From: Humidesulfovibrio mexicanus
GTDB lineage: Bacteria; Desulfobacterota; Desulfovibrionia; Desulfovibrionales; Desulfovibrionaceae
NCBI RefSeq assembly: GCF_900188225.1
Contig: NZ_FZOC01000002.1
Coordinates: forward strand, 492,310 to 556,309
Direction of reading: 5' to 3'
DNA length: 64,000 nucleotides
Shown in pieces: positions 8,243 through 64,000 of this stretch. A model generated the notes under the pieces. That model was not told the DNA's origin, ran no database searches, and saw nothing but the letters and a program-made list of their open reading frames with translations. The first letter of the stretch is position 1; every line of letters begins with the position of its first letter. A program made the translations under genes and the position numbers.

Positions 8243-10786
8243 GTGTCCGACGAGCAGTCCAACCATACCGGTCAGGCGGCCCCCCCTGCGGGAGTCGTGT
8301 TCACGTGCGCCTCTTGCGGGCATGTCCAGCCGCTCCCAGCGAGGTTTGGCGGCCGCAAGGCCCGCTGTCCCAAGTGCAAAACGCCCGGCGTTGTCGGCGC
8401 TTTGCCTGTTGCCGAGCCTGGCGTCGATGATGTGAAGCTCGACGATCTGGTCGCCGAGGAGTCGATCGCAGAGCCCGCTCCTGCTCTGGCAGAACCTGTG
8501 GCCATTGAGTCCGAACCGTCCGCCAGCATGGCCGATGTTTCGGATGCCAGGCGCATGTTTTTGAGGAATCCTGGTGTGAATCTGCTGGCTGGCGTCGTCG
8601 GCGGGGGGCATCTGCTGCTCTCCTGCCTCGCGTTGGCGATGCTCACGCTGTCTCCTGGGCCGGGCGGGCTTTTCGTCGGTCATGCCCTTGCGTTGACCCT
8701 TGCCCCGGCCGTGTTCGGCTCCTTGCTTCTTGCCCTGCGCGGACGCTTTCCCGTGGCTCTCGCCGGGCCGGATCCCTCTGCCACGCTGTGCGTCTTTCTC
8801 CTTTTGGCCGCCGTGTCGTCCGATCTTTCGGGCCGGGTTCCCCCCGCAGTTTTGGCCGCCACATGTTTTGCCGCCCTGCCTGCCGCCGCATTTGTTTCCG
8901 GTGCGCTGGGGGGGCTGCTTTCGCGTCTGCGGTTCGCTGACCGTGTGCGATTTTTGCCCGGAGAGGTGCTGGGCGGTATGATCGCAGGGTTCGGTCTGCT
9001 GCTGGTCAAGGCCTGGGTTCCGGTCCTGGCCGCAACCGACCCCGCGTTGGCAGCGTTGCACGCCTTGCCGCTGGACGAATTCCTTCCGGGGCTGGGGCGC
9101 ACCGTTTCCGCCTGGGGGCCGACAGTGGGGTTCGGACTGGCGCTTTTCGCCATCAGGCTCGCCACTCGGAGCCTCTTGTGGCCGCTCCTGCTCGCCGTAT
9201 TTGCCTTAGGGCTCTGGAACCTGCTGGCCCTGCATTCCGGCTTGGTCCCGGACTGGACCGCGCCAGCAGCGGCCCTGGCGGCCTCCCAGAGGTCCCTGCC
9301 CGCCATGCTCGACCTTGATTCCGCCTTAAGGCTTTTGGAACCCGGCTTGTTCCAGTCCGTGGACTGGACTGCGCTGGTTTCTCGGACGGATTATTTCGCA
9401 GCCGTGGCTGCCGTCGTCATCCTTCCGTCCCTTGTCCGCACGCCCATCCTGGAATCCGTTTCGGCCTGCGACGCGCAGCCTGATGCGCAGATGCGCACCC
9501 TTGGCGCGGCGACCATACTGTCTGGGGCGACCGGCGGCTTGCCTTGCTCCCTGTCCCTTTCCGGCAGCCTGAGCCTGCGTTTGCTGGGCGCCAACGGACC
9601 GCTTGCGGGGCTGGCGGCGGCGCTGACCTGTTTTGCGGCCTGGATGTATGGCGGGCCGCTGCTGCGCCATGTCCCGCTGTTCATTCCGTTGGGTGCGCTG
9701 CTGGCCACGGCGCTGGCCATGCCGGTCTCCTGGCTGTTGGGCGATGCCCGCAACCCGCTTTCACGCAAGGAGGATCTTCGCGCAGCCTGGGCGTCCTGCT
9801 TGTTGGTGGCCCTGTTCGGCCCCGTGCTTGGGGTGTTCGTCACCTTGGGCCTTGGCGCAATGCTGAGCCTGTCCCGCGCTGTCTCCGGCGGAGGCGTGCG
9901 CTTGGCCCAGTCGGGAGATGTGTTCCACAGCAATGTGGACCGTTCGCCGATGGAAAAGCGCGTGCTGCGCGAGCAGGGCGGACGCATTCTCGTGCTGCGA
10001 CTGCACGGGTACCTGTTCCTTGGGACGCTCTACGGCGTGCTGCGCATGGTGCAGAACAGCTTGCGGACACAGCCGCTGCGCTTCGTGCTCCTTGATTTCG
10101 GCGCGGTGACCGGTCTGGGGTCCTCGGCCGCCATCGGTTTTCGAAGGCTGGAATCCTTGGCCGCGGCGCAGGGGATGCACATCTACTTCACCAGCGTGCC
10201 CTTGGAATTGGAGCAGCACCTGGAAGGACTTGGGTACCACATGGACGACCAGGCTGGCGTGTGCCGGGTGGCGCTCAACCTGGATTACGCCATGGAGTTT
10301 TGTGAGGATGCGCTGCTTTCCGAGGCCGGGCTTTTGGAGCGGCATACGGAGAGCCTGGAAGGGCTGCTCCTGGCCGGGTTTCCAGAGCCGGACCTGGTGC
10401 CGCTGTTGCTCAAGTGCCTGGAACGGGTGGAGGCTCCACGAAATGCCGTGATGATTCGCCAGGGCGATGCTTCGGACTGCATGTACTTCCTGGAGTCAGG
10501 AAGGGTGCGCGTCGAGCTCGCCTTGCCGGGCGGTCGGCTTCTGCGCCTGAAGAAGATGGGGCCGGGCACCGTGTTCGGGGAGATGGGACTGTATACCAAC
10601 GCCCCCCGTTCGGCCTCGGTCATCGCTTCCGAACCCTGCGTGGCGTTCAGGCTTTCCGCGGAGCGTTTCGCCTTGGTCCAGCGCAAGGTGCCGCAGCTTG
10701 CCGCTGCGGTGAACCGCTTCGTGGTGGGACTGCTGGCGGAGCGGGTGGCCGAGGAGAACGCCAAGAACCGCGCTGCCCAGCTTTAG
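8243..10786 (+). CDS. SulP-family transporter with zinc-ribbon, STAS and cyclic-nucleotide-binding domains
   Basis: GGAGG at 8233-8237 selects GTG 8243 (847 residues). Residues 22-45 form a CxxC-x16-CxxC zinc ribbon. Residues about 115-550 hold a dozen hydrophobic segments of the SulP/SLC26 anion transporter fold. A STAS domain follows at about 555-660 (LRLHGYLFLGTLYGVL, VLLDFGAVTGLGSSA). The C-terminus, about 718-840, is a cNMP-binding domain with IRQGDASDCMYFLESGRV and GTVFGEMGLYTNAPRSASV. SulP proteins move sulfate, bicarbonate or carboxylates; the substrate cannot be told. The domain set suggests that transport is gated by a cytoplasmic nucleotide signal. Its stop overlaps the stop of the convergent thioesterase gene. 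Confidence 0.85.
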   Translation: MSDEQSNHTGQAAPPAGVVFTCASCGHVQPLPARFGGRKARCPKCKTPGVVGALPVAEPGVDDVKLDDLVAEESIAEPAPALAEPVAIESEPSASMADVSDARRMFLRNPGVNLLAGVVGGGHLLLSCLALAMLTLSPGPGGLFVGHALALTLAPAVFGSLLLALRGRFPVALAGPDPSATLCVFLLLAAVSSDLSGRVPPAVLAATCFAALPAAAFVSGALGGLLSRLRFADRVRFLPGEVLGGMIAGFGLLLVKAWVPVLAATDPALAALHALPLDEFLPGLGRTVSAWGPTVGFGLALFAIRLATRSLLWPLLLAVFALGLWNLLALHSGLVPDWTAPAAALAASQRSLPAMLDLDSALRLLEPGLFQSVDWTALVSRTDYFAAVAAVVILPSLVRTPILESVSACDAQPDAQMRTLGAATILSGATGGLPCSLSLSGSLSLRLLGANGPLAGLAAALTCFAAWMYGGPLLRHVPLFIPLGALLATALAMPVSWLLGDARNPLSRKEDLRAAWASCLLVALFGPVLGVFVTLGLGAMLSLSRAVSGGGVRLAQSGDVFHSNVDRSPMEKRVLREQGGRILVLRLHGYLFLGTLYGVLRMVQNSLRTQPLRFVLLDFGAVTGLGSSAAIGFRRLESLAAAQGMHIYFTSVPLELEQHLEGLGYHMDDQAGVCRVALNLDYAMEFCEDALLSEAGLLERHTESLEGLLLAGFPEPDLVPLLLKCLERVEAPRNAVMIRQGDASDCMYFLESGRVRVELALPGGRLLRLKKMGPGTVFGEMGLYTNAPRSASVIASEPCVAFRLSAERFALVQRKVPQLAAAVNRFVVGLLAERVAEENAKNRAAQL

Positions 10787-15944: not shown

Positions 15945-16038
15945 TGGCGGAAGCGTATAGGAGTCGAACCTACCTGACGCCTCTCGACGTCACACCAGAT
16001 TTGAAGTCTGGGCGCCACACCGGTGACGATACGCTTCC
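15945..16038 (-). tRNA. selC: tRNA-Sec (selenocysteine, anticodon TCA)
   Basis: The 94-nt minus-strand gene begins GGAAGCGTATCG and ends ATACGCTTCCGCCA, so an extended acceptor stem of 8 pairs is formed, as in bacterial selC. The anticodon stem-loop CAGACTTCAAATCTG carries UCA, which reads UGA. A long variable arm (GTGACGTCGAGAGGCGTCA) and the T loop GTTCGACTC follow. Its presence means the host inserts selenocysteine, as expected for organisms with selenium-containing formate dehydrogenases or hydrogenases. None of those genes or selA/B/D is in the window. Confidence 0.95.
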
Positions 16039-56652: not shown

Positions 56653-56730
56653 CCACTGCATCGGCAGCAGCCCGAGCAAGCGCGTAGGCAGTGAACCGGA
56701 TACAGCGGCGCGTTTGCGGCGCAACGAAAA

Positions 56731-56756
56731 AGGGGTCATCGTTTCCGATGACCCCT
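56731..56756 (-). terminator. Terminator of the tRNA-Pro gene (minus strand)
   Basis: AGGGGTCATCG (56731-56741) pairs with CGATGACCCCT (56746-56756) around TTTC. The T-tract (TTTTTCG) lies on the minus strand, 12 bp after the tRNA-Pro 3' end. It may also slow plus-strand transcription from the response regulator. Confidence 0.8.
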
Positions 56757-56768
56757 TGGCTCGTCGAG

Positions 56769-56817
56769 TGGTCGGGATGAGAGGAGTTGAACCTCCGGCC
56801 CCCTGAACCCCATTCAG
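56769..56817 (-). tRNA. 3' fragment of tRNA-Pro(GGG), attachment site (attL)
   Basis: The minus strand reads CTGAATGGGGTTCAGG, a proline anticodon arm with anticodon GGG, then the variable loop, T arm (GGAGGTTCAACTCC) and CATCCCGACCA. The matching 5' acceptor CGGGATG and D arm are absent upstream. Instead the sequence before CTGAATG is unrelated and AT-rich. This is the remnant left when an element integrates into the 3' half of a tRNA gene; the reconstituted gene should be at the other end. Confidence 0.85.
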
Positions 56818-56860
56818 TTATGATAGCCTTCACGCAAAATCACCAAGCATACATAAAGTA

Positions 56861-56889
56861 TTGACAGGCAATGATCTGATAGCTAGTGT
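56861..56889 (+). promoter_or_regulatory. Promoter of the integrase gene
   Basis: TTGACA (56861-56866), a 17-bp spacer and TAGTGT (56884-56889). An AGGAGG follows at 56898 but no start codon is near it. Confidence 0.55.
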
Positions 56890-56930
56890 ACTTCACAGGA
56901 GGTCACGGCAAAACGTTCAATTTCACCTGA

Positions 56931-56952
56931 AAAAGTGGCACAAAAGTGGCAC
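56931..56952 (+). repeat. Tandem 11-bp repeat before the integrase
   Basis: AAAAGTGGCAC occurs twice in direct tandem (56931-56941 and 56942-56952). Its place between attL and the integrase gene fits an arm-type binding site for integrase or excisionase. Confidence 0.6.
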
Positions 56953-56973
56953 AAACTTCCTGGGGGAAGTGAA

Positions 56974-58191
56974 ATGGCCGAGAAATGGACCCGCGTTGAA
57001 AAGGGCATCCGCTACCGGGAGCACCCCACGCGGAAGCATGGCGTTGCCCCAGACAAGTATTTCGTGCTGCGTTTCACCGTTGACGGCCAGAAGAGGCAAG
57101 AGCCATTGGGCTGGGCATCCGAGGGCATTACCTTGGACAAGGCCCGTATAGAGCTTTCAAAGCTACGCGAAGCAAAGCGGACAGGCGCGGGAGAGCGCAC
57201 CTTGTCCGAGCGCCGGGCCAAGCATGAAGCCGAGCGTCAGGCGAAAGAGGCTGCCAAACTGGAAGCCGAGCGCACCGCTATGACCGTGGGTCAGTTCTGG
57301 CAGGAACGCTACTGGCCCGCACAGGATTACAAGGCCAAGGGCAGCCGCGTGACGGAACAGGGGCTTTGGCGCTTGTGGATTGCTCCGGCCATGCAGGACA
57401 AGCCGCTGGCGCAGTTGAGCGCCTTTGACGTTGAGCGCGTGAAGTCCGCCATGCTCAAGGCGGGAAGGGCCGCTGCCTCCGTCAAGTATGCCCTGGCCGT
57501 GGTGGGCCAAATCTGGACCCTGGCCGTGCGAGACGGCTTCGCATCCGGCCCTTGCCCGGCCAAGCTTGTGACGCTGCCCAAGAAAGACAACCGCCGCCAA
57601 CGCTACCTGTCTGCCGAGGAATCGCACTTGCTGTTGGCGGAACTCAAGAAACGCACTCCGACTTCTCACGATATGGCCCTGTGCGCCCTGGATATGGGCC
57701 TACGCTTCGGAGAGATCGCTGGGCTCACATGGCAGGACGTTGACCTTGAGCGCAAGCAAATCCTTATCCGCGACCCCAAGGCCCGGACCAACCGCGTAGC
57801 CTTTCTGACTGCCCGCACCCTGCGCATGTTGAAGAAGCGCAAGGCGGATGCCACAGGGCAACTTGTGTTCCCTGGCCGAGGCGGCGTCCTTATGGACCGC
57901 ATTTCCCATGTGTTCCGGCACGTGGCGGATGAGCTTTTCAACCAAGGCGTGAATGACCCTAGGCAGCGCGTGTGCTTCCACACGCTGCGCCATACTTTTG
58001 CAAGTTGGCTGGTGGAAGCCGGGACAAGCCTGTACGCCGTCAAGGAACTCATGGGCCATGCAGACTTTGATATGACGCAACGCTACTCGCATCTTTCGCC
58101 GGAAGGTCTGCGGGCTGCAATCGGGGTGCTTGAGCAACATGCCACGCCCGTTGAGTCTGCCAAGGTGGTGCATCTGCGGGGGGCGGAGTAG
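56974..58191 (+). CDS. Tyrosine-recombinase integrase
   Basis: GGGGGAAG supports ATG 56974 (405 residues); a GTG at 56935 is in frame but unsupported. An N-terminal arm-binding region (YFVLRFTVDGQKRQEPLG) and a charged linker precede the SAM-like core-binding domain (about 100-190). The catalytic domain has R244 in GLRFGEI, H336 and R339 in HTLRHTF, H362 in LMGHADF and nucleophile Y371 in RYSHL, all intact. It is oriented away from the tRNA-Pro remnant and should catalyse integration there. Confidence 0.95.
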   Translation: MAEKWTRVEKGIRYREHPTRKHGVAPDKYFVLRFTVDGQKRQEPLGWASEGITLDKARIELSKLREAKRTGAGERTLSERRAKHEAERQAKEAAKLEAERTAMTVGQFWQERYWPAQDYKAKGSRVTEQGLWRLWIAPAMQDKPLAQLSAFDVERVKSAMLKAGRAAASVKYALAVVGQIWTLAVRDGFASGPCPAKLVTLPKKDNRRQRYLSAEESHLLLAELKKRTPTSHDMALCALDMGLRFGEIAGLTWQDVDLERKQILIRDPKARTNRVAFLTARTLRMLKKRKADATGQLVFPGRGGVLMDRISHVFRHVADELFNQGVNDPRQRVCFHTLRHTFASWLVEAGTSLYAVKELMGHADFDMTQRYSHLSPEGLRAAIGVLEQHATPVESAKVVHLRGAE

Positions 58192-58236
58192 CCACGAACC
58201 CCGGCCTGTGTGGCTAGGCAAATTTTCCAGGGCCTA

Positions 58237-58259
58237 GGGGCGGCCTAATTACCCGCCCC
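58237..58259 (+). terminator. Hairpin after the integrase
   Basis: GGGGCGG (58237-58243) pairs with CCGCCCC (58253-58259) around a 9-nt AT-rich loop. Only GAAAAG follows, so termination would be Rho-assisted or weak. Confidence 0.4.
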
Positions 58260-58324
58260 GAAAAGCCGCTACCCTGGCGGCCTGGCCCTGGACTCTACCA
58301 GGGGCAAGCGAAGGGGGCTTGAGC

Positions 58325-59620
58325 ATGGATGCTGCGACAATGGACGGTAAAGCTGTTCTTGAAAAGTACTCCATTTCTATAGGCGAACTCGTGAAGGCCA
58401 TTCTCGGCGGGCTCCCGGCATATGACGCGGTTACTGGTAAGCGAGTCATTGACCAGGACTCTTTGGTTGCCCGCCCAAAGTACCAGACAGAGGAACAAGC
58501 GGCAAAAGTTGTTGACCTGATCGACTTGAGCAATGCCGTAAGGCAGACAAGGCGCGGGGAGAAGCCATTTCGCACCTATGCACCGGGGGGAGCATCAGGG
58601 ATTGATGAGATTGTGCGCCGCAACAAAACACAGCTTCTCATGAAGGATACGAAAGTCTATGAATTTCCAGCAGGACAGGAGAGCCCACAGGAACCGTGGG
58701 GAGTTTTCCCGTTGCGCTATGACACGTTTCACCGGGAGTATTCGGAGCCTGTAATGCTCGGATTTCACGGTGAAGGCGAGAGCGTCCAAGGGTTGTATCA
58801 AAAGCTCATTGGAGCAATGCGTTTCCCTGTGGCATTTGTGGAGGCTCGATTCGGAAGCACAACTACGGGAAAAACATTGGATATACGCCATGTGCCGCTT
58901 ACGCCGGGCCAAGACTGGCTTGGGAACCTGGACCCTCTTCTGAACCGAAAGCAGATAGCCCGAACCATCTCTGTCTTTGAACTGCTTTCCAGGTGGGCGG
59001 GTGCATCTGGCGAAAGCATGGGCGCACTCTCTGAAAGGCTTGTGCGATTCCTCAAGCATGGCACTCTGCATCTGTTTGAGCCCCATGAAGCGGGGGCGCG
59101 TGTTCTGTATGCCCCTTCAACAATAGGCGCGGCAAAAATCGAGATTGATTGTGCCGTAGCTTCGCTTGGCGGGTGGGCTTCTGGACTTGCAGAGGTTGAA
59201 ACTCTCTCTGCTCTCAGCGTTGACATGGTGGAAGTCGAGGCCATTGAAGCAGAAGAGTATAACGCGTCCTTGAAGCCTGTTGCCTCAAACGCCAGCGGCC
59301 TAGAGCCCGAACAGGTTGCGCCGATGGGGGGCGGGGAAGCCGAAGATGTACAAGGTAAGATCGAAGTGATGGTGCCTCAATCACTATTTGCAGGAAAAAC
59401 GCCACAGGCAGTACGCAATTCACTCAAGGAAGGAGGTTTCGATGAGCATATCATTGCGTACGTGCTACATAAGATTTTAAAAAAGAATAAAACCGAGGTG
59501 GGCCGTTTGCTAATGGCTGGCAAGTCAAAAGATGGACTGACTCCCGCCGACTCTACCTGTCTGCGTCACACAAATGGTCTCTTGGAAACTGCCGCAGGTA
59601 ATAAGATCGTCATAAGCTGA
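58325..59620 (+). CDS. Unrecognised 431-residue element protein
   Basis: An AGGGGG site precedes ATG 58325. The protein has 431 residues, no signal peptide and no clear membrane segment. An N-terminal region (SISIGELVKAILGGLPAYDAVTGKRV) is followed by a middle domain with FPLRYDTFHREY and DIRHVPLTPGQDWLG. An acidic linker lies around residues 290-345. The C-terminal domain (SLFAGKTPQAVRNSLKEGGF, then KKNKTEVGRLLMAGKSKDG) looks like a helical nucleic-acid-binding module. Codon use is more AT-rich than in neighbours, most of all in the last 250 bp. It stands between the integrase and the regulator, the usual cargo slot. I do not know its function. Confidence 0.75.
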   Translation: MDAATMDGKAVLEKYSISIGELVKAILGGLPAYDAVTGKRVIDQDSLVARPKYQTEEQAAKVVDLIDLSNAVRQTRRGEKPFRTYAPGGASGIDEIVRRNKTQLLMKDTKVYEFPAGQESPQEPWGVFPLRYDTFHREYSEPVMLGFHGEGESVQGLYQKLIGAMRFPVAFVEARFGSTTTGKTLDIRHVPLTPGQDWLGNLDPLLNRKQIARTISVFELLSRWAGASGESMGALSERLVRFLKHGTLHLFEPHEAGARVLYAPSTIGAAKIEIDCAVASLGGWASGLAEVETLSALSVDMVEVEAIEAEEYNASLKPVASNASGLEPEQVAPMGGGEAEDVQGKIEVMVPQSLFAGKTPQAVRNSLKEGGFDEHIIAYVLHKILKKNKTEVGRLLMAGKSKDGLTPADSTCLRHTNGLLETAAGNKIVIS

Positions 59621-59627
59621 CGGCGAA

Positions 59628-59686
59628 ACGCCTGTTTTTCTGCAATATGATGGAAAGACGCCTGTAGAATGCTGTCTCAACGCCTG
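59628..59686 (+). repeat. Three direct repeats ACGCCTG upstream of the AlpA-like gene
   Basis: ACGCCTG starts at 59628, 59658 and 59680, with spacing of 30 and 22 bp, each preceded by an A-rich base pair or two. Iteron-like sites of this kind bind excisionases or replication initiators. Confidence 0.45.
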
Positions 59687-59708
59687 CCAGTCTAGCTGAA
59701 AATGTTCC

Positions 59709-59770
59709 CATAAGCCCACAGGTGAAGCCGAGTGCGGATTGTCCGTGCGAGCGCGACCACAGGGCTTATG
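59709..59770 (+). repeat. Inverted repeat with internal hairpin before the AlpA-like gene
   Basis: CATAAGCCC (59709-59717) is exactly complementary to GGGCTTATG (59762-59770). The 44 nt between contain a CGGA/TCCG hairpin. The right arm abuts the AAGGAG ribosome site (59771-59776), so pairing could affect translation. Confidence 0.5.
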
Positions 59771-59780
59771 AAGGAGCAAG

Positions 59781-60011
59781 ATGCACGTTGACGCCTACGC
59801 CGATCTTGAAAAGACCCTGCCCCCGATTCTCTCCCGTACCGAAGTTCCAAAGCTCACAGGCGGGCTAATCTCCGCTGGACGCCTTGCTAATCTTGACTGT
59901 GAGGGCAAAGGCCCGCGCCGCATTACCTTGGGCCGCAAGGTGGGCTACACCCGCGCCGATTTCATTGCGTGGATGCGCTCACGTGGCGGACAGTCCGAGG
60001 CGGAAGGGTAG
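59781..60011 (+). CDS. AlpA-like helix-turn-helix regulator/excisionase
   Basis: AAGGAG precedes ATG 59781. The 76-residue protein has a compact winged-helix pattern: LSRTEVPKLTGGLISAGRLANLD as the HTH and GPRRITLGRKVGYTRADFIAWMRSRG as the wing and last helix. This matches small AlpA/excisionase-type proteins in which ...GRKVGY...FIxW is typical. They activate integrase or excision and regulate replication genes. The repeats just upstream may be its targets. Confidence 0.75.
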   Translation: MHVDAYADLEKTLPPILSRTEVPKLTGGLISAGRLANLDCEGKGPRRITLGRKVGYTRADFIAWMRSRGGQSEAEG

Positions 60012-60015
60012 CGCC

Positions 60016-60225
60016 ATGCAGAAAACAGAAAACCCCGCTGGCGGGCGGGGCTCTGTGCTGGTGCTGAAAGGATTCGTTTGCGTTGAATCCCTTCTATACC
60101 GGGCGGGCCTCGCCGTCAAACTGTGGACCCTGCGCTGGCTGCGCACCTTCACCTCTGAAATGGGCATGGCCTGTAGCCGCTGGACGGACAGGCTCACCAT
60201 TGCGCTTGAAGAGGTGGGCAAATGA
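60016..60225 (+). CDS. Small coupled ORF, unknown
   Basis: ATG 60016 lies 4 bp after the regulator's stop, and the TGA overlaps the next ATG (ATGA). The 69-residue product has a Gly/Arg-rich start (NPAGGRGSVLVLKGF), a moderately hydrophobic middle (ESLLYRAGLAVKLWTLRWLRTF) and an amphipathic C-terminal helix. The coupling on both sides argues that it is translated. No family recognised. Confidence 0.6.
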   Translation: MQKTENPAGGRGSVLVLKGFVCVESLLYRAGLAVKLWTLRWLRTFTSEMGMACSRWTDRLTIALEEVGK

Positions 60226-62624
60226 CATATGCCATTTCCACCTTCCGCGCCGTCATCGAGGCGGCGGGCCTGCGCCCCGGCGAGATCATGGCGGACGGGA
60301 CATTGCACCGCTGCCCGGTGGACGGCAAGCCCAACGCCAAAGACGGGGCCTATGTGCTCCATGTGGACGCCCCGGCCTCCGGCTGGTGGCAGAACTACCG
60401 CACAGGCGATGCGGACACCTGGACCGCCAAGGAAGAGCGGAGATTGAGCCCTGCGGAGCGGCAAGCACTCCAGGCGCGTATCGAGGAGGACCGCCGCGCC
60501 CGTGAAGCCGAGACTGTCACGCGCCATGCCGAGGCCCGCAAAAAGGCCCTGTACGTGCTCGCCAAGGCCCAGGATTGCACGGCGCACCCCTATCTTGAGC
60601 GCAAAGGCGCACGTGCCTGCCACGGCCTCAAGGTGGGCGAGGATGGCCGCTTGCTTGTGCCCGTGCTTTCGCCTGCGGACGGCAAGGCCATGAGCCTGCA
60701 AACCATCGCGGCGGACGGCGGCAAGTTGTTCCTCTCTGGTGGATGCACCAAGGGCGGCTACTTCGCTATTAAGGGCAACGCAGGACCGCTCTACATTGCC
60801 GAGGGATTGGCAACGGGCTTGAGCATCCATGAAGCCACGAAGCAAACGGTCCTCTGCGCCTTTAACGCCGGGAACCTTGAAGCTGTGGCGACTCATGCCC
60901 GCCAGAAGTACCCGGACCGGGAACTAGTGCTTTGCGCAGACGATGATCACGCCACGCCCGGCAACCCCGGCTTGAGCAAGGCGACTGCGGCGGCCCTGGA
61001 CGTGGGGGCATTTCTGGCCGTGCCGAGTTTCAAGGAACCTGCCGGGCGTACCGACTTCAACGATCTGCACCAAGCCGAGGGCCTGGACGTGGTGCGGGCT
61101 CAACTGGCCGGAGCATCCAAGCCTGTGGCCGTGGCAGAGGCCCCCATAGAGCCTGTGAGCTTCGATGCGCTGAATGTGCCGGACGTTGACCCTGCCTTGC
61201 TGCCCCCGATCTTGGGGGAGTTCTGCGGAGCTGTTGCCGAGGGCCTGCAAGTGCCCTTTGAGTTGGTGCTTATCAATGCCTTGTCCTGTGTGGCCGTGGC
61301 TGGGCAGCGCAAGTTCAAGGTGCAGGTGCGCCCGGACTACACGGAGCCCGTCAACATTTATGCCCTGGCGGCATTGCCCCCTGGCGAACGCAAGAGCGCC
61401 ACGGCGGAAGCCTGCAAGCGCCCGCTCATTGATTGGGAGACAGAAGCCCAGGAAGAGGCGCGGGAGAGCATCCGAAACACCCTGAGCGAACGCAAGACGC
61501 TGGAAAAGGCCATTGAAGCCAAGCGGGCCAAAGCAGGCAACGCCAAGACGGCAGAGGACCGCCGCGCCCTTATAGATGAAATCAGGGCGCTTGAAGCGGA
61601 GTTGCCCGAAGTGCCAGCCGCGCCCCGACTGCTGATTGATGACGTGACGCCGGAAGCAATCCCGGCATTCATGGAACGCCAGCAAGAGCGGGCGGGCATC
61701 ATCGAAGCCGAGGGCGGTCTGTTCGACATTCTGGCTGGGCGCTATTCCAAGGGAGTGCCGAACCTGGACGCCGTGCTGAAACTCTGGTCCGGCGAAGCGG
61801 TTCACGTTGACCGCCGGAGCGGGCAAAACATCGTGCTCCATGACCCAGCGTTGACCATCTGCCTTTCCCCTCAGCCGGACATTGTGCGGGGCCTGGCGGA
61901 CAAGCCGGGATTCCGGGGCCGTGGCCTCTTGGGGCGCTTCCTGTTCCTGTTGCCCAAAAGCCGCGTAGGTAGCCGAGAGGTGGAGCCCCAGCCCATTTCC
62001 CAGGCCGTGCAAGCCCGATACGCGGCCAAGGTGCGCGGGCTTCTGGCCCTGCCGTGGGCGCTGGGCTCTGACGGCAAGCCCGTGCCCTACCTCTTGCAGA
62101 TTGCGCCGGATGCCTACCGGGAGTGGGCGGACTTCCATCGTGACGTTGAAGCGGAACTGCGCCCCGGTGGAGAGCTTGAGCTGATTGCCGATTGGGGCGG
62201 CAAGTTGCACGGGGCCGCTGCCCGGCTTGTTGGGCTTCTGCATCTTGTGGAGCATGACGCCCCGCACCTGCACCCTATCGGCCTGGGCACCATGCAACAG
62301 GCGCTTGGCCTCGCGGCGGTCCTCACGGAACACGCCAAGGCTGCTTTTGCCCTCATGGGGGCGGACCCGGACATTGAATGCGCAAAGCATATCCTGGCCT
62401 GGATTGTGGACCGACACGTTGACGCATTCCAGGCACGGGAAGCCTTCCAGGCGGTGAAGGGCCGCTACTCCAAAATGGAGTTGGTCAAGGCTGGGCTCTC
62501 CATCTTGGAGGAACGGGCGTACATCTTCCCGGCCCAGGTGCCAGCGCGTGAACCGGGCAAGGCTGGCCGCTCCCCTTCACCTGGCTACAGCGTCAACCCC
62601 CTGGCCTTCGGGGGTGCCCAATGA
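60222..62624 (+). CDS. Toprim/DUF3987 primase-helicase-like replication protein
   Basis: The 800-residue protein opens with a short domain around HRCPVDGKPNAKDGAYVLH that resembles the degenerate zinc-binding part of element primases. A Toprim domain follows at about residues 185-285: LYIAEGLATGLSIHEAT gives the acidic residue, VLCADDDH the DxD and TDFNDLHQ the C-terminal part. Residues about 315-750 match DUF3987 proteins, a helicase-like family of satellites and integrative elements, including LPPGERKSAT, a P-loop-like position with Arg-Lys-Ser. Its probable task is priming and unwinding for autonomous element replication. Confidence 0.85.
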   Translation: MTYAISTFRAVIEAAGLRPGEIMADGTLHRCPVDGKPNAKDGAYVLHVDAPASGWWQNYRTGDADTWTAKEERRLSPAERQALQARIEEDRRAREAETVTRHAEARKKALYVLAKAQDCTAHPYLERKGARACHGLKVGEDGRLLVPVLSPADGKAMSLQTIAADGGKLFLSGGCTKGGYFAIKGNAGPLYIAEGLATGLSIHEATKQTVLCAFNAGNLEAVATHARQKYPDRELVLCADDDHATPGNPGLSKATAAALDVGAFLAVPSFKEPAGRTDFNDLHQAEGLDVVRAQLAGASKPVAVAEAPIEPVSFDALNVPDVDPALLPPILGEFCGAVAEGLQVPFELVLINALSCVAVAGQRKFKVQVRPDYTEPVNIYALAALPPGERKSATAEACKRPLIDWETEAQEEARESIRNTLSERKTLEKAIEAKRAKAGNAKTAEDRRALIDEIRALEAELPEVPAAPRLLIDDVTPEAIPAFMERQQERAGIIEAEGGLFDILAGRYSKGVPNLDAVLKLWSGEAVHVDRRSGQNIVLHDPALTICLSPQPDIVRGLADKPGFRGRGLLGRFLFLLPKSRVGSREVEPQPISQAVQARYAAKVRGLLALPWALGSDGKPVPYLLQIAPDAYREWADFHRDVEAELRPGGELELIADWGGKLHGAAARLVGLLHLVEHDAPHLHPIGLGTMQQALGLAAVLTEHAKAAFALMGADPDIECAKHILAWIVDRHVDAFQAREAFQAVKGRYSKMELVKAGLSILEERAYIFPAQVPAREPGKAGRSPSPGYSVNPLAFGGAQ

Positions 62625-63025
62625 GCTTGGCCGCCAAGTGGAAGAACAGAGCCAGCGGAGGCACTTGTGGGGATGAAGTTGTAAGCTCAATATTCCCAAT
62701 ATCCTCAAAATACCCCCTCAAGCCTAATTCTGAGGATTGTGGGAATATTGAGCATAAGAATCCAACCCCAGGCTTGAGCATAGCCGGGGGGCCTTGGGGC
62801 CTCCCCTGGCCGAAGCCGGAAGCCTTCCCTTTGGTGGTGCGGTCCGTGCCGTGGAAGTACGCCTGCCTTTGGGCAATCGTCTCCCACTTCGGCGCTGCGC
62901 TCACCAGAGATGCCGGGGGCGGACTTACCCTTACCTGTCCGGCCACGATGCCCCAGGAAGCCGCACAGGCGGCAAGAGACGGCCTTGCGGAGTTGGCCGG
63001 GTACATCGGGGGGCGGCTGCAATGA
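62621..63025 (+). CDS. Unknown 134-residue protein of the replication block
   Basis: ATG 62621 overlaps the primase stop (ATGA) and its own TGA overlaps the next ATG, so it is translated in a chain. The first 50 residues (SSIFPISSKYPLKPNSEDCGNIEHK) are encoded by AT-rich DNA that forms a long inverted repeat. The last 80 (VPWKYACLWAIVSHFGAALTRD onwards) are GC-rich and host-like. The N-terminal part may be shaped more by the DNA structure than by protein function. No family recognised. Confidence 0.6.
   Translation: MSLAAKWKNRASGGTCGDEVVSSIFPISSKYPLKPNSEDCGNIEHKNPTPGLSIAGGPWGLPWPKPEAFPLVVRSVPWKYACLWAIVSHFGAALTRDAGGGLTLTCPATMPQEAAQAARDGLAELAGYIGGRLQ
62685..62753 (+). repeat. Large AT-rich inverted repeat inside the 134-residue gene
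   Basis: The arm 62685-62707 is complementary to 62731-62753 over 23 positions with about three mismatches around the middle; GCTCAATATTCCCA is exact. The 23-nt loop is CT-rich. It is the strongest hairpin in the element and lies 60 bp after the primase gene. Confidence 0.75.
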
Positions 63026-63492
63026 AGATCATCTGCGACAGCCGCGAACAACTGGCCTTCACCTTTGGCGGCTATGGCTGCGAGGTGCAGGCCGGGACGC
63101 TCACCACGGGCGACTACTCCCTTGCCGGGCTTGAGGACCGCTGCGCGGTGGAGCGCAAGAGCCTGGACGATCTGCTAGGCTGCCTAATTGGCGAAGGCAG
63201 GGAGCGTTTCGAGCGTGAGCTTGCCCGCGCCGCTGGCCTGGAATGCTTCGCCGTGGTGGTGGAAGCGTCCATGCAGGACATGGCAGAGGGCCGCTACCGT
63301 TCGCGCATGAAGCCCCACGCGGCGCTTCAATCGGTGCTGGCCTTCCAAGTACGCCACGGCTGCCCGTTTCTCTGGTGCGGCAATCGGACCGGGGCAGAGT
63401 ACGCAACCTATCACTTCCTGCGGCATTACCTGCGGGAGGCGTCCACCAGATACAAAAGCATCCTTGAGGCCCACGGGCCGCAGGCAGCATAG
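63022..63492 (+). CDS. ERCC4-type nuclease domain protein
   Basis: ATG 63022 overlaps the preceding stop. The 156-residue protein is a lone ERCC4 (XPF-type) nuclease fold: CDSREQ at the N-terminus, TTGDYSLAG with the catalytic Asp, and AVERKSLDDLLGCL, the ERK-x3-D signature. Such single-domain nucleases occur in phages and satellites and cut branched or flap DNA. Its place in a primase block suggests processing of replication or recombination intermediates. Confidence 0.88.
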   Translation: MKIICDSREQLAFTFGGYGCEVQAGTLTTGDYSLAGLEDRCAVERKSLDDLLGCLIGEGRERFERELARAAGLECFAVVVEASMQDMAEGRYRSRMKPHAALQSVLAFQVRHGCPFLWCGNRTGAEYATYHFLRHYLREASTRYKSILEAHGPQAA

Positions 63493-63503
63493 GAGCTACT
63501 GAC

Positions 63504-64000
63504 ATGGCGAAACGTAAGGCAAAAGAAAAGCCCACGGACAAGGCCCCGGTGAAGATGCGGGAAATGACCCCGGCGGAACAGGCCCGATATGAGGCGTACA
63601 AGGTGCGGAAGGCTGCAACACCTGAGCCCTTGAAGTATGAGGAGGGAGAAACACGGGACGGGGTGCGGCAGTTGGTCAACCGCCAAGACTATCCTGTTGG
63701 CTTTGAGGTGTCTGCCATGATGGCGGCAACTGGCACCGTGGACCTTGGGGCGGGTACGGGCCTGATTAATCAGGCAGGCAATGCCGTGCCCACGTATAGC
63801 GACCCGGTGAACCACGGGAACGATATCATTGCCAGAATGACAGACATAGCCCCTAGTGACGGCCTGGAAGGGATGCTAGCCGCCCAAATGGTGACATGCC
63901 ACAACGCTGCAATGGAGTGTATGCGCCGGGCTCACGTAGGTGGGCAGACCCCTGAGGGCCGCAAGCTCAATCTCACTTTTTGCGGACCGTTTTCTGCGCA
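63504..64000 (+). CDS. Element protein of unknown function (3' truncated by window edge)
   Basis: AGGAG precedes ATG 63504 and the frame stays open to the edge, 165 codons. The N-terminus is Lys-rich (AKRKAKEKPTDKAP). A middle part has an alanine-rich MMAATGTVDLGAG stretch, and then LAAQMVTCHNAAMECMRRAHVGGQTPEGRKLNL. The last segment resembles a family of small phage or integrated-element proteins of unknown role with an AAQMV-HN-AMEC-RRA helix; I make this link from memory only. Confidence 0.6.
   Translation, partial: MAKRKAKEKPTDKAPVKMREMTPAEQARYEAYKVRKAATPEPLKYEEGETRDGVRQLVNRQDYPVGFEVSAMMAATGTVDLGAGTGLINQAGNAVPTYSDPVNHGNDIIARMTDIAPSDGLEGMLAAQMVTCHNAAMECMRRAHVGGQTPEGRKLNLTFCGPFSA

Follow-up and report, generated by a model that had tools for sequence, protein, structure and literature searches.

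The window analysed here is a stretch of 64,000 nucleotides from the genome of the sulphate-reducing bacterium Humidesulfovibrio mexicanus (G000:C2:492310-556309), and its right-hand part is occupied by an integrated element inserted at tRNA-Pro(GGG), whose genes follow each other in the order integrase (int), slot gene, alpA, small ORF, Toprim/DUF3987 primase, orf6, ERCC4 nuclease, a frameshifted orf8 and, last, a gene carrying a short TerS-like motif. An RNA of the Rfam family RF02996 (int-alpA RNA), absent from the initial annotation of this DNA, lies between the integrase, which ends at 58191, and alpA, which starts at 59781. The features are as follows (positions refer to the window unless the contig, C2, is given):

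56729..56757, no strand assigned: host terminator hairpin, still beside the displaced tRNA 3′ fragment (sequence AAAAAGGGGTCATCGTTTCCGATGACCCCTT)
56769..56817, minus strand: attachment-site repeat, the 3′ 49 nt of tRNA-Pro(GGG), with its exact partner at C2:556909-556957
56935..56955, plus strand: GTGGCACAAA direct-repeat pair, putative integrase arm sites
56974..58191, plus strand: tyrosine integrase of 405 aa, oriented inward (PF00589, E 9.5e-27; phrog_1)
58227..58304, plus strand: int-alpA RNA (RF02996; 55.0 bits against a gathering threshold of 35.8), its ends being the Rfam model boundaries
58246..58251, plus strand: palindrome UAAUUA in the apical loop of P2
58265..58281, plus strand: P3 hairpin, GCCGC-UACCCUG-GCGGC, whose loop is complementary to copy 1 and to the Shine-Dalgarno (SD) region
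58299..58303, plus strand: copy 1 (CAGGG), which is complementary to the P3 loop and lies in the 3′ tail of the Rfam model
58305..58321, plus strand: P4 hairpin, CAAGC-GAAGGGG-GCUUG, which holds the SD, or copy 2 (SD 58311-58317), as seen from the fold and from arm covariation in relatives
58325..59620, plus strand: slot gene, 431 aa, the first gene past the leader RNA, without known domain
59781..60011, plus strand: AlpA-like regulator/excisionase, 76 aa (phrog_66, E 0.0048)
60016..60225, plus strand: small ORF, 69 aa, in ATGA overlap with the primase gene (homologues in loci L038 and L045)
60222..62624, plus strand: primase-helicase with Toprim_3 and DUF3987, 800 aa (PF13362, E 6.7e-14; PF13148, E 9.8e-98)
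62621..63025, plus strand: orf6, 134 aa, with ATGA overlaps (homologues in L036, L040 and L047)
63022..63492, plus strand: ERCC4-type nuclease, 156 aa (PF02732, E 1.6e-12; phrog_3490, E 8e-25)
63504..64000, plus strand: orf8, running past the window end, with a single base inserted into a run of T
C2:556442-556750: last gene, 102 aa, with a TerS-like motif (phrog_1889, E 2e-7 over 32 residues)

Integration at tRNA-Pro(GGG), proposed in the initial annotation from the tRNA fragment, is borne out by several observations. The second copy of the 49-bp segment, expected to the right, is found 601 bp past the window end, where it makes up the last 49 nt, at the 3′ end, of a complete tRNA-Pro(GGG) gene on the minus strand (Rfam tRNA, 60 bits). 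The identity between the two copies has sharp edges (extension 0 bp to the left and 49 bp to the right), which gives an element of 7,831 bp plus one repeat. Finally, when the two host flanks of the element were joined and used as a query for the empty site, they matched a congener as one piece (G269:C35:19129-20047, query positions 37-949, 69%), in a region that has an intact tRNA-Pro and, as here, is bordered by the response-regulator and glycosyltransferase genes. The site in G269 is therefore empty, and both checks proposed with the initial annotation, for a second copy and for the site in a relative, came out in favour of integration. The intact tRNA-Pro now ends at a terminator supplied by the element, while the host terminator has stayed with the displaced fragment, as had been noticed. 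Near the right end of the element there is a second GTGGCACAAA pair (window-equivalent 64523-64543), and both pairs lie inside the element ends. A second congener, G219, has a related element at the tRNA-Pro site, with the att fragment beside a 96% identical integrase on one contig, and the element's last gene together with an intact tRNA-Pro on another.

Further observations concern tRNA genes as such. In the congener G250, 44 bp of the tRNA-Pro 3′ fragment recur exactly (G250:C139:3683-3726, L178), with no recognisable relative of the element's genes nearby, and the site may thus be used by other elements too. G269 carries a relative of the element at tRNA-Phe (L159, 10300-11352), whose terminator closely resembles the one brought here to tRNA-Pro. 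Elsewhere in the window a tRNA-SeC gene adjoins tRNA-Val (15945-16038), from which it follows that the host decodes selenocysteine.

As regards the genes, the inward-reading integrase and the compact replication block with Toprim/DUF3987 primase and ERCC4 nuclease, both read earlier from the letters alone, are matched by Pfam profiles, and the proposed chain of ATGA-coupled genes is present in the sequence as three overlaps, at 60222, 62621 and 63022. The AlpA-like gene itself has no Pfam match and only a weak PHROG excisionase match (E about 0.005), but PF05930 (Phage_AlpA) is matched by 21 of 42 positional homologues. A PADLOC search with every gene of the element gave no match. The frame of orf8 is broken by an extra base in a T run (+1), and a programmed frameshift was set aside because two relatives without the extra base read a single open frame; the base is either a sequencing error or a true mutation, the two being indistinguishable here. 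About 160 nt are shared, in different frames, by orf8 and the gene with the TerS-like motif (L004 8286-8748, window-equivalent 63976-64438), and the same overlap occurs in the relatives L156 and L159.

The earlier proposal of a satellite or an integrative plasmid fits this gene content now that the whole element has been read to its right end. All ORFs of the 7.8 kb were read and a complete virion gene set is absent: capsid, portal, tail and conjugation genes are lacking across the whole element, in agreement with what had been stated for the first 7 kb, although the last gene adds a TerS-like motif to that picture. Instead of a phage satellite, the element could be an integrative plasmid or what is left of a decayed prophage. 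This appears the less likely reading; it draws on the lack of any packaging or capsid-redirection gene beyond the 32-residue TerS-like motif, on the frameshifted gene, and on the viral contigs searched, which yielded no close relative (best 34-35% identity). On the other hand, the int/alpA/primase/ERCC4 block is compact and intact, as are the att sites, and exact att repeats at tRNA genes delimit elements of 7.4-14.8 kb at 11 int-alpA loci, so that relatives of this kind sit at many tRNAs. A possible helper is present in the same genome, a Mu-like prophage (G000:C5:5000-44800; L315, L316) in which terminase, portal, protease and tail genes are found. From its gene content, the element is most likely a phage satellite.

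The RNA between int and alpA is widespread. It is found in 65 of the 297 genomes of the order and in 47 of 297 genomes sampled across the phylum. For 55 loci of the order, taken with large flanks and with their genes mapped, an integrase lies upstream of the RNA in 50, with a spacing of 6 to 3,213 bp, and alpA is found 0.5-2 kb downstream in 41; most often a single gene of 126-431 aa separates RNA and alpA. An ORF of at least 90 aa begins 8-30 nt past the RNA in 88 of 100 loci (order and phylum together), compared with 12.8% at random positions. This near-fixed distance, in contrast to the widely varying spacing from int, makes the RNA the leader of the slot gene, whatever it might additionally do in trans. 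No promoter was detected in the gap from int to the RNA, which counts against the leader model proposed below. Many relatives, such as L121, L124 and L134, carry one to three extra genes between int and the RNA, and the true cargo position may be this gap rather than the slot after the RNA.

The slot gene had been described as an unknown cargo-slot gene, and its role as cargo was not borne out. The 47 slot proteins examined are very diverse and mosaic, with no Pfam, PHROGs or NCBIfam family common to them; weak matches occur in a few (phrog_270, a replication initiator, in two and HTH_36 in three). The AlphaFold model of the window slot protein has a pLDDT of 42, with the C-terminal 70 residues alone being moderately confident, and a Foldseek search with this model returned nothing at E 0.001 or better. 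It could be argued that the slot holds a defence or toxin gene as ordinary cargo and that the RNA merely flags a cargo hotspot, given the high diversity of the slot genes and the fact that P4-like and PICI elements are known to carry defence genes in hotspots. This seems unlikely, since there is usually one gene at a constant distance after the RNA and since PADLOC gave no convincing defence match in any of the 47 slot proteins (best E 6e-4); a role as defence cargo was rejected, the matches among the 47 being all of sub-threshold quality. The fixed spacing, the lack of a defence match and the position as first gene of the alpA-primase stretch are better accounted for by a regulated early gene, which, judging from sequence, the slot gene probably is.

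The Rfam consensus of RF02996 consists of P1, P2, P3 and an unpaired tail. The window RNA folds with P1, P2, P3 and, in addition, P4, its stability being only mildly better than that of shuffled sequences (z -1.4) and the P3 loop being reduced to CCC in the MFE fold. Across relatives, the P3 loop, copy 1 and copy 2 (the SD region of the slot gene) change together. Among 82 unique RNAs, complementarity of the P3 loop to copy 1 scores 1085 against 819 after permutation (sd 18), and to copy 2 1084.5 against 896 (sd 16.5), values reached in 0 of 2000 permutations in both cases, while control windows score 672-686; in 30 loci thinned across the phylum the excess is retained (z 8.2 for copy 1 and 6.9 for copy 2), the permutations and the thinning reducing the effect of shared ancestry without wholly removing it. 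The pairing is kept even where the sequences depart from the SD consensus, as in L220 (CCGCA/TGCGG/TGCGG), L236 (UCCCGCA/TGCGGGA/GCGGGA) and L212 (CCUAC/GTAGG/GTAGG). As a negative control, the P3 loop shows no excess of complementarity to the alpA start (302.5 vs 299.0; 706 of 2000 permutations equally good). The arms of P4 also covary (1132 vs 867, sd 21; 0 of 1000 permutations). A P3 loop complementary to the first gene's ribosome-binding region is thus a property of int-alpA RNAs as a class (82 RNAs and the thinned set), the P3-SD match in the window RNA itself being short (CCCU/AGGG).

A second feature is found in P2. In RNAs of the long-P2 type the 9-nt loop is usually centred on a 6-nt palindrome, of which five are seen (UAAUUA, UCAUGA, UAGCUA, UGAUCA and UCGCGA). 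Such a palindrome occurs in 14 of 48 distinct P2 loops, against a mean of 2.3 and a maximum of 7 in 2000 shuffles. Since the two central bases of a palindrome are unable to pair inside one loop, intermolecular pairing is the simplest reading, which suggests RNA dimerisation. The short-P2 RNAs are mixed, many having AGCU, GGCC, CGCG or GCGC and others GACG or AGCA, without a palindrome, and the dimerisation reading is correspondingly weaker for them.

The conserved sequence might instead act as DNA, as a recombination or binding site for slot-gene exchange in which the palindrome is a protein site, and the diverse, mosaic slot proteins do indicate that exchange beside the RNA occurs. We consider this very improbable, because five different palindromes and a covarying loop and SD are unexpected for one binding site, because the hairpin arms covary too, and because the alpA start has no match to the loop (see above).

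The position of the leader and its covarying pairings are thus direct observations, as are the integration and the gene content, and what they may mean for the life of the element is as follows. We regard it as probable, with room for doubt, that the locus is a 7.8-kb int-alpA-primase integrative element, most likely a phage satellite, in which the int-alpA RNA leader serves as an antisense-type off-switch of the slot gene and of alpA-primase. The integrase and AlpA would excise the element, and the primase-helicase together with the ERCC4 nuclease would replicate it. The leader would fold as a three-way junction (closing stem P1, P2 and P3) followed by the P4 hairpin with the SD, and the P3 loop would have two mutually exclusive partners, copy 1 in the tail and copy 2, the SD region. 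Since one of the two is the ribosome-binding site of the gene that opens the alpA-primase stretch, a translational off-switch is the simplest reading. Whether the RNA acts in cis or a processed copy of it acts in trans, pairing of P3 with the SD would shut the slot gene in the integrated state, and alpA and the primase would also be off by polarity from it, whereas the other state would be the one with P3 paired to copy 1. Through their palindromic P2 loops two such RNAs could pair with each other, which would provide self-recognition. Repression, polarity, dimerisation and dependence on a helper phage are steps that we infer.

A switch of opposite sign can also be envisaged, in which a P3-loop pseudoknot opens the SD hairpin and sets the level of the early protein, as in RepZ-based control of plasmid copy number. 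Two alternative partners of the P3 loop suit a switch of either sign, and the weak replication-initiator and HTH matches in a few slot proteins would be in keeping with such a control; activation is nevertheless quite improbable, given that the P3 loop pairs with the SD bases themselves and not with the strand masking them, which should block ribosomes, and that the arms of P4 are distinct from copy 2. Returning to the off-switch, a more far-reaching form of it, which is put forward tentatively and with less than even confidence, is that with int-alpA RNAs there is a second class of satellite immunity RNA, unrelated to the first, in which the P3 loop masks the SD of the first early gene, copy 1 releases it and self-pairing of P2 sets immunity groups, the RNA taking the role of the repressor that is missing in satellites with AlpA but without a protein repressor.

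The silencing of AlpA-type satellites, which this leader model addresses, is an open problem: the global repressor of PICIs has been called unclear (PMC6092414), and how the helper activates the early regulon of PICMI has been posed as a question (PMC10803314). If the model is true, the leader would be the element's likely off-switch, closing the slot gene's ribosome-binding site; the uncharacterised family RF02996 would gain a concrete, testable mechanism, and the gene that recurs between int and alpA would be a regulated early gene instead of cargo.

Among the known systems, the phage-inducible chromosomal minimalist islands (PICMI) of Vibrionaceae are close in layout, with int, one gene before alpA, alpA, a small gene, a DUF3987-type primase and no capsid genes (PMC10803314), and colocalised int, alpA and DUF3987/DUF5906 primase, a trait of PICMI, are found here as well. 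In PICMI, alpA is the key activator, and the gene between int and alpA (iolg/icg) comprises 13 families whose function is not known, iolg being needed for excision (PMC10803314); by position, the slot gene is closest to iolg/icg. The two differ in that the PICMI prototype lies downstream of fis and the element here at tRNA-Pro, that iolg often overlaps int whereas here a structured RNA precedes the slot gene, and that the element here also has an ERCC4 nuclease and a last gene bearing a TerS-like motif. The order int, alpA, primase is also that of the Gram-negative PICI EcCICFT073 (PMC6092414), PICIs being helper-phage satellites, a lifestyle that the element here may share. This proven E. coli PICI gave no match to RF02996 or to C4 at E up to 1, and the RNA switch is therefore not general to PICIs. 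On present sequence evidence, PICI/PICMI-like is the best reading of the element.

Rfam types RF02996 as an sRNA gene, and both the P3-loop pairing and the SD hairpin are missing from its consensus line; the pairings are thus new relative to that consensus, with an earlier notice of some of them in the motif's original description being possible. A functional parallel is the P4 CI/P1 C4 immunity RNA (RF01695), likewise a three-stem leader upstream of a replication operon with a UCCU-type P3 loop; the loops a′ and b′ of C4 bind their targets (PMC5320573). C4 acts in trans after processing by RNase P, a mode that the int-alpA RNA may share. The phage P4 CI RNA is matched by the C4 model, and in phage P4 (L243) the stretch 8615-8705 (minus), upstream of CI, is matched by both the isrK and the c4-a1b1 model of Rfam, so that overlapping sequence carries two names. 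RF01695 gave no match to the int-alpA RNA here at E up to 10, nor did RF02996 match phage P4. Unlike P4 CI/C4, the int-alpA RNA has both partner copies downstream and a palindromic P2 loop. By analogy, the int-alpA RNA would work in outline like P4 CI/C4, from outside the RF01695 family.
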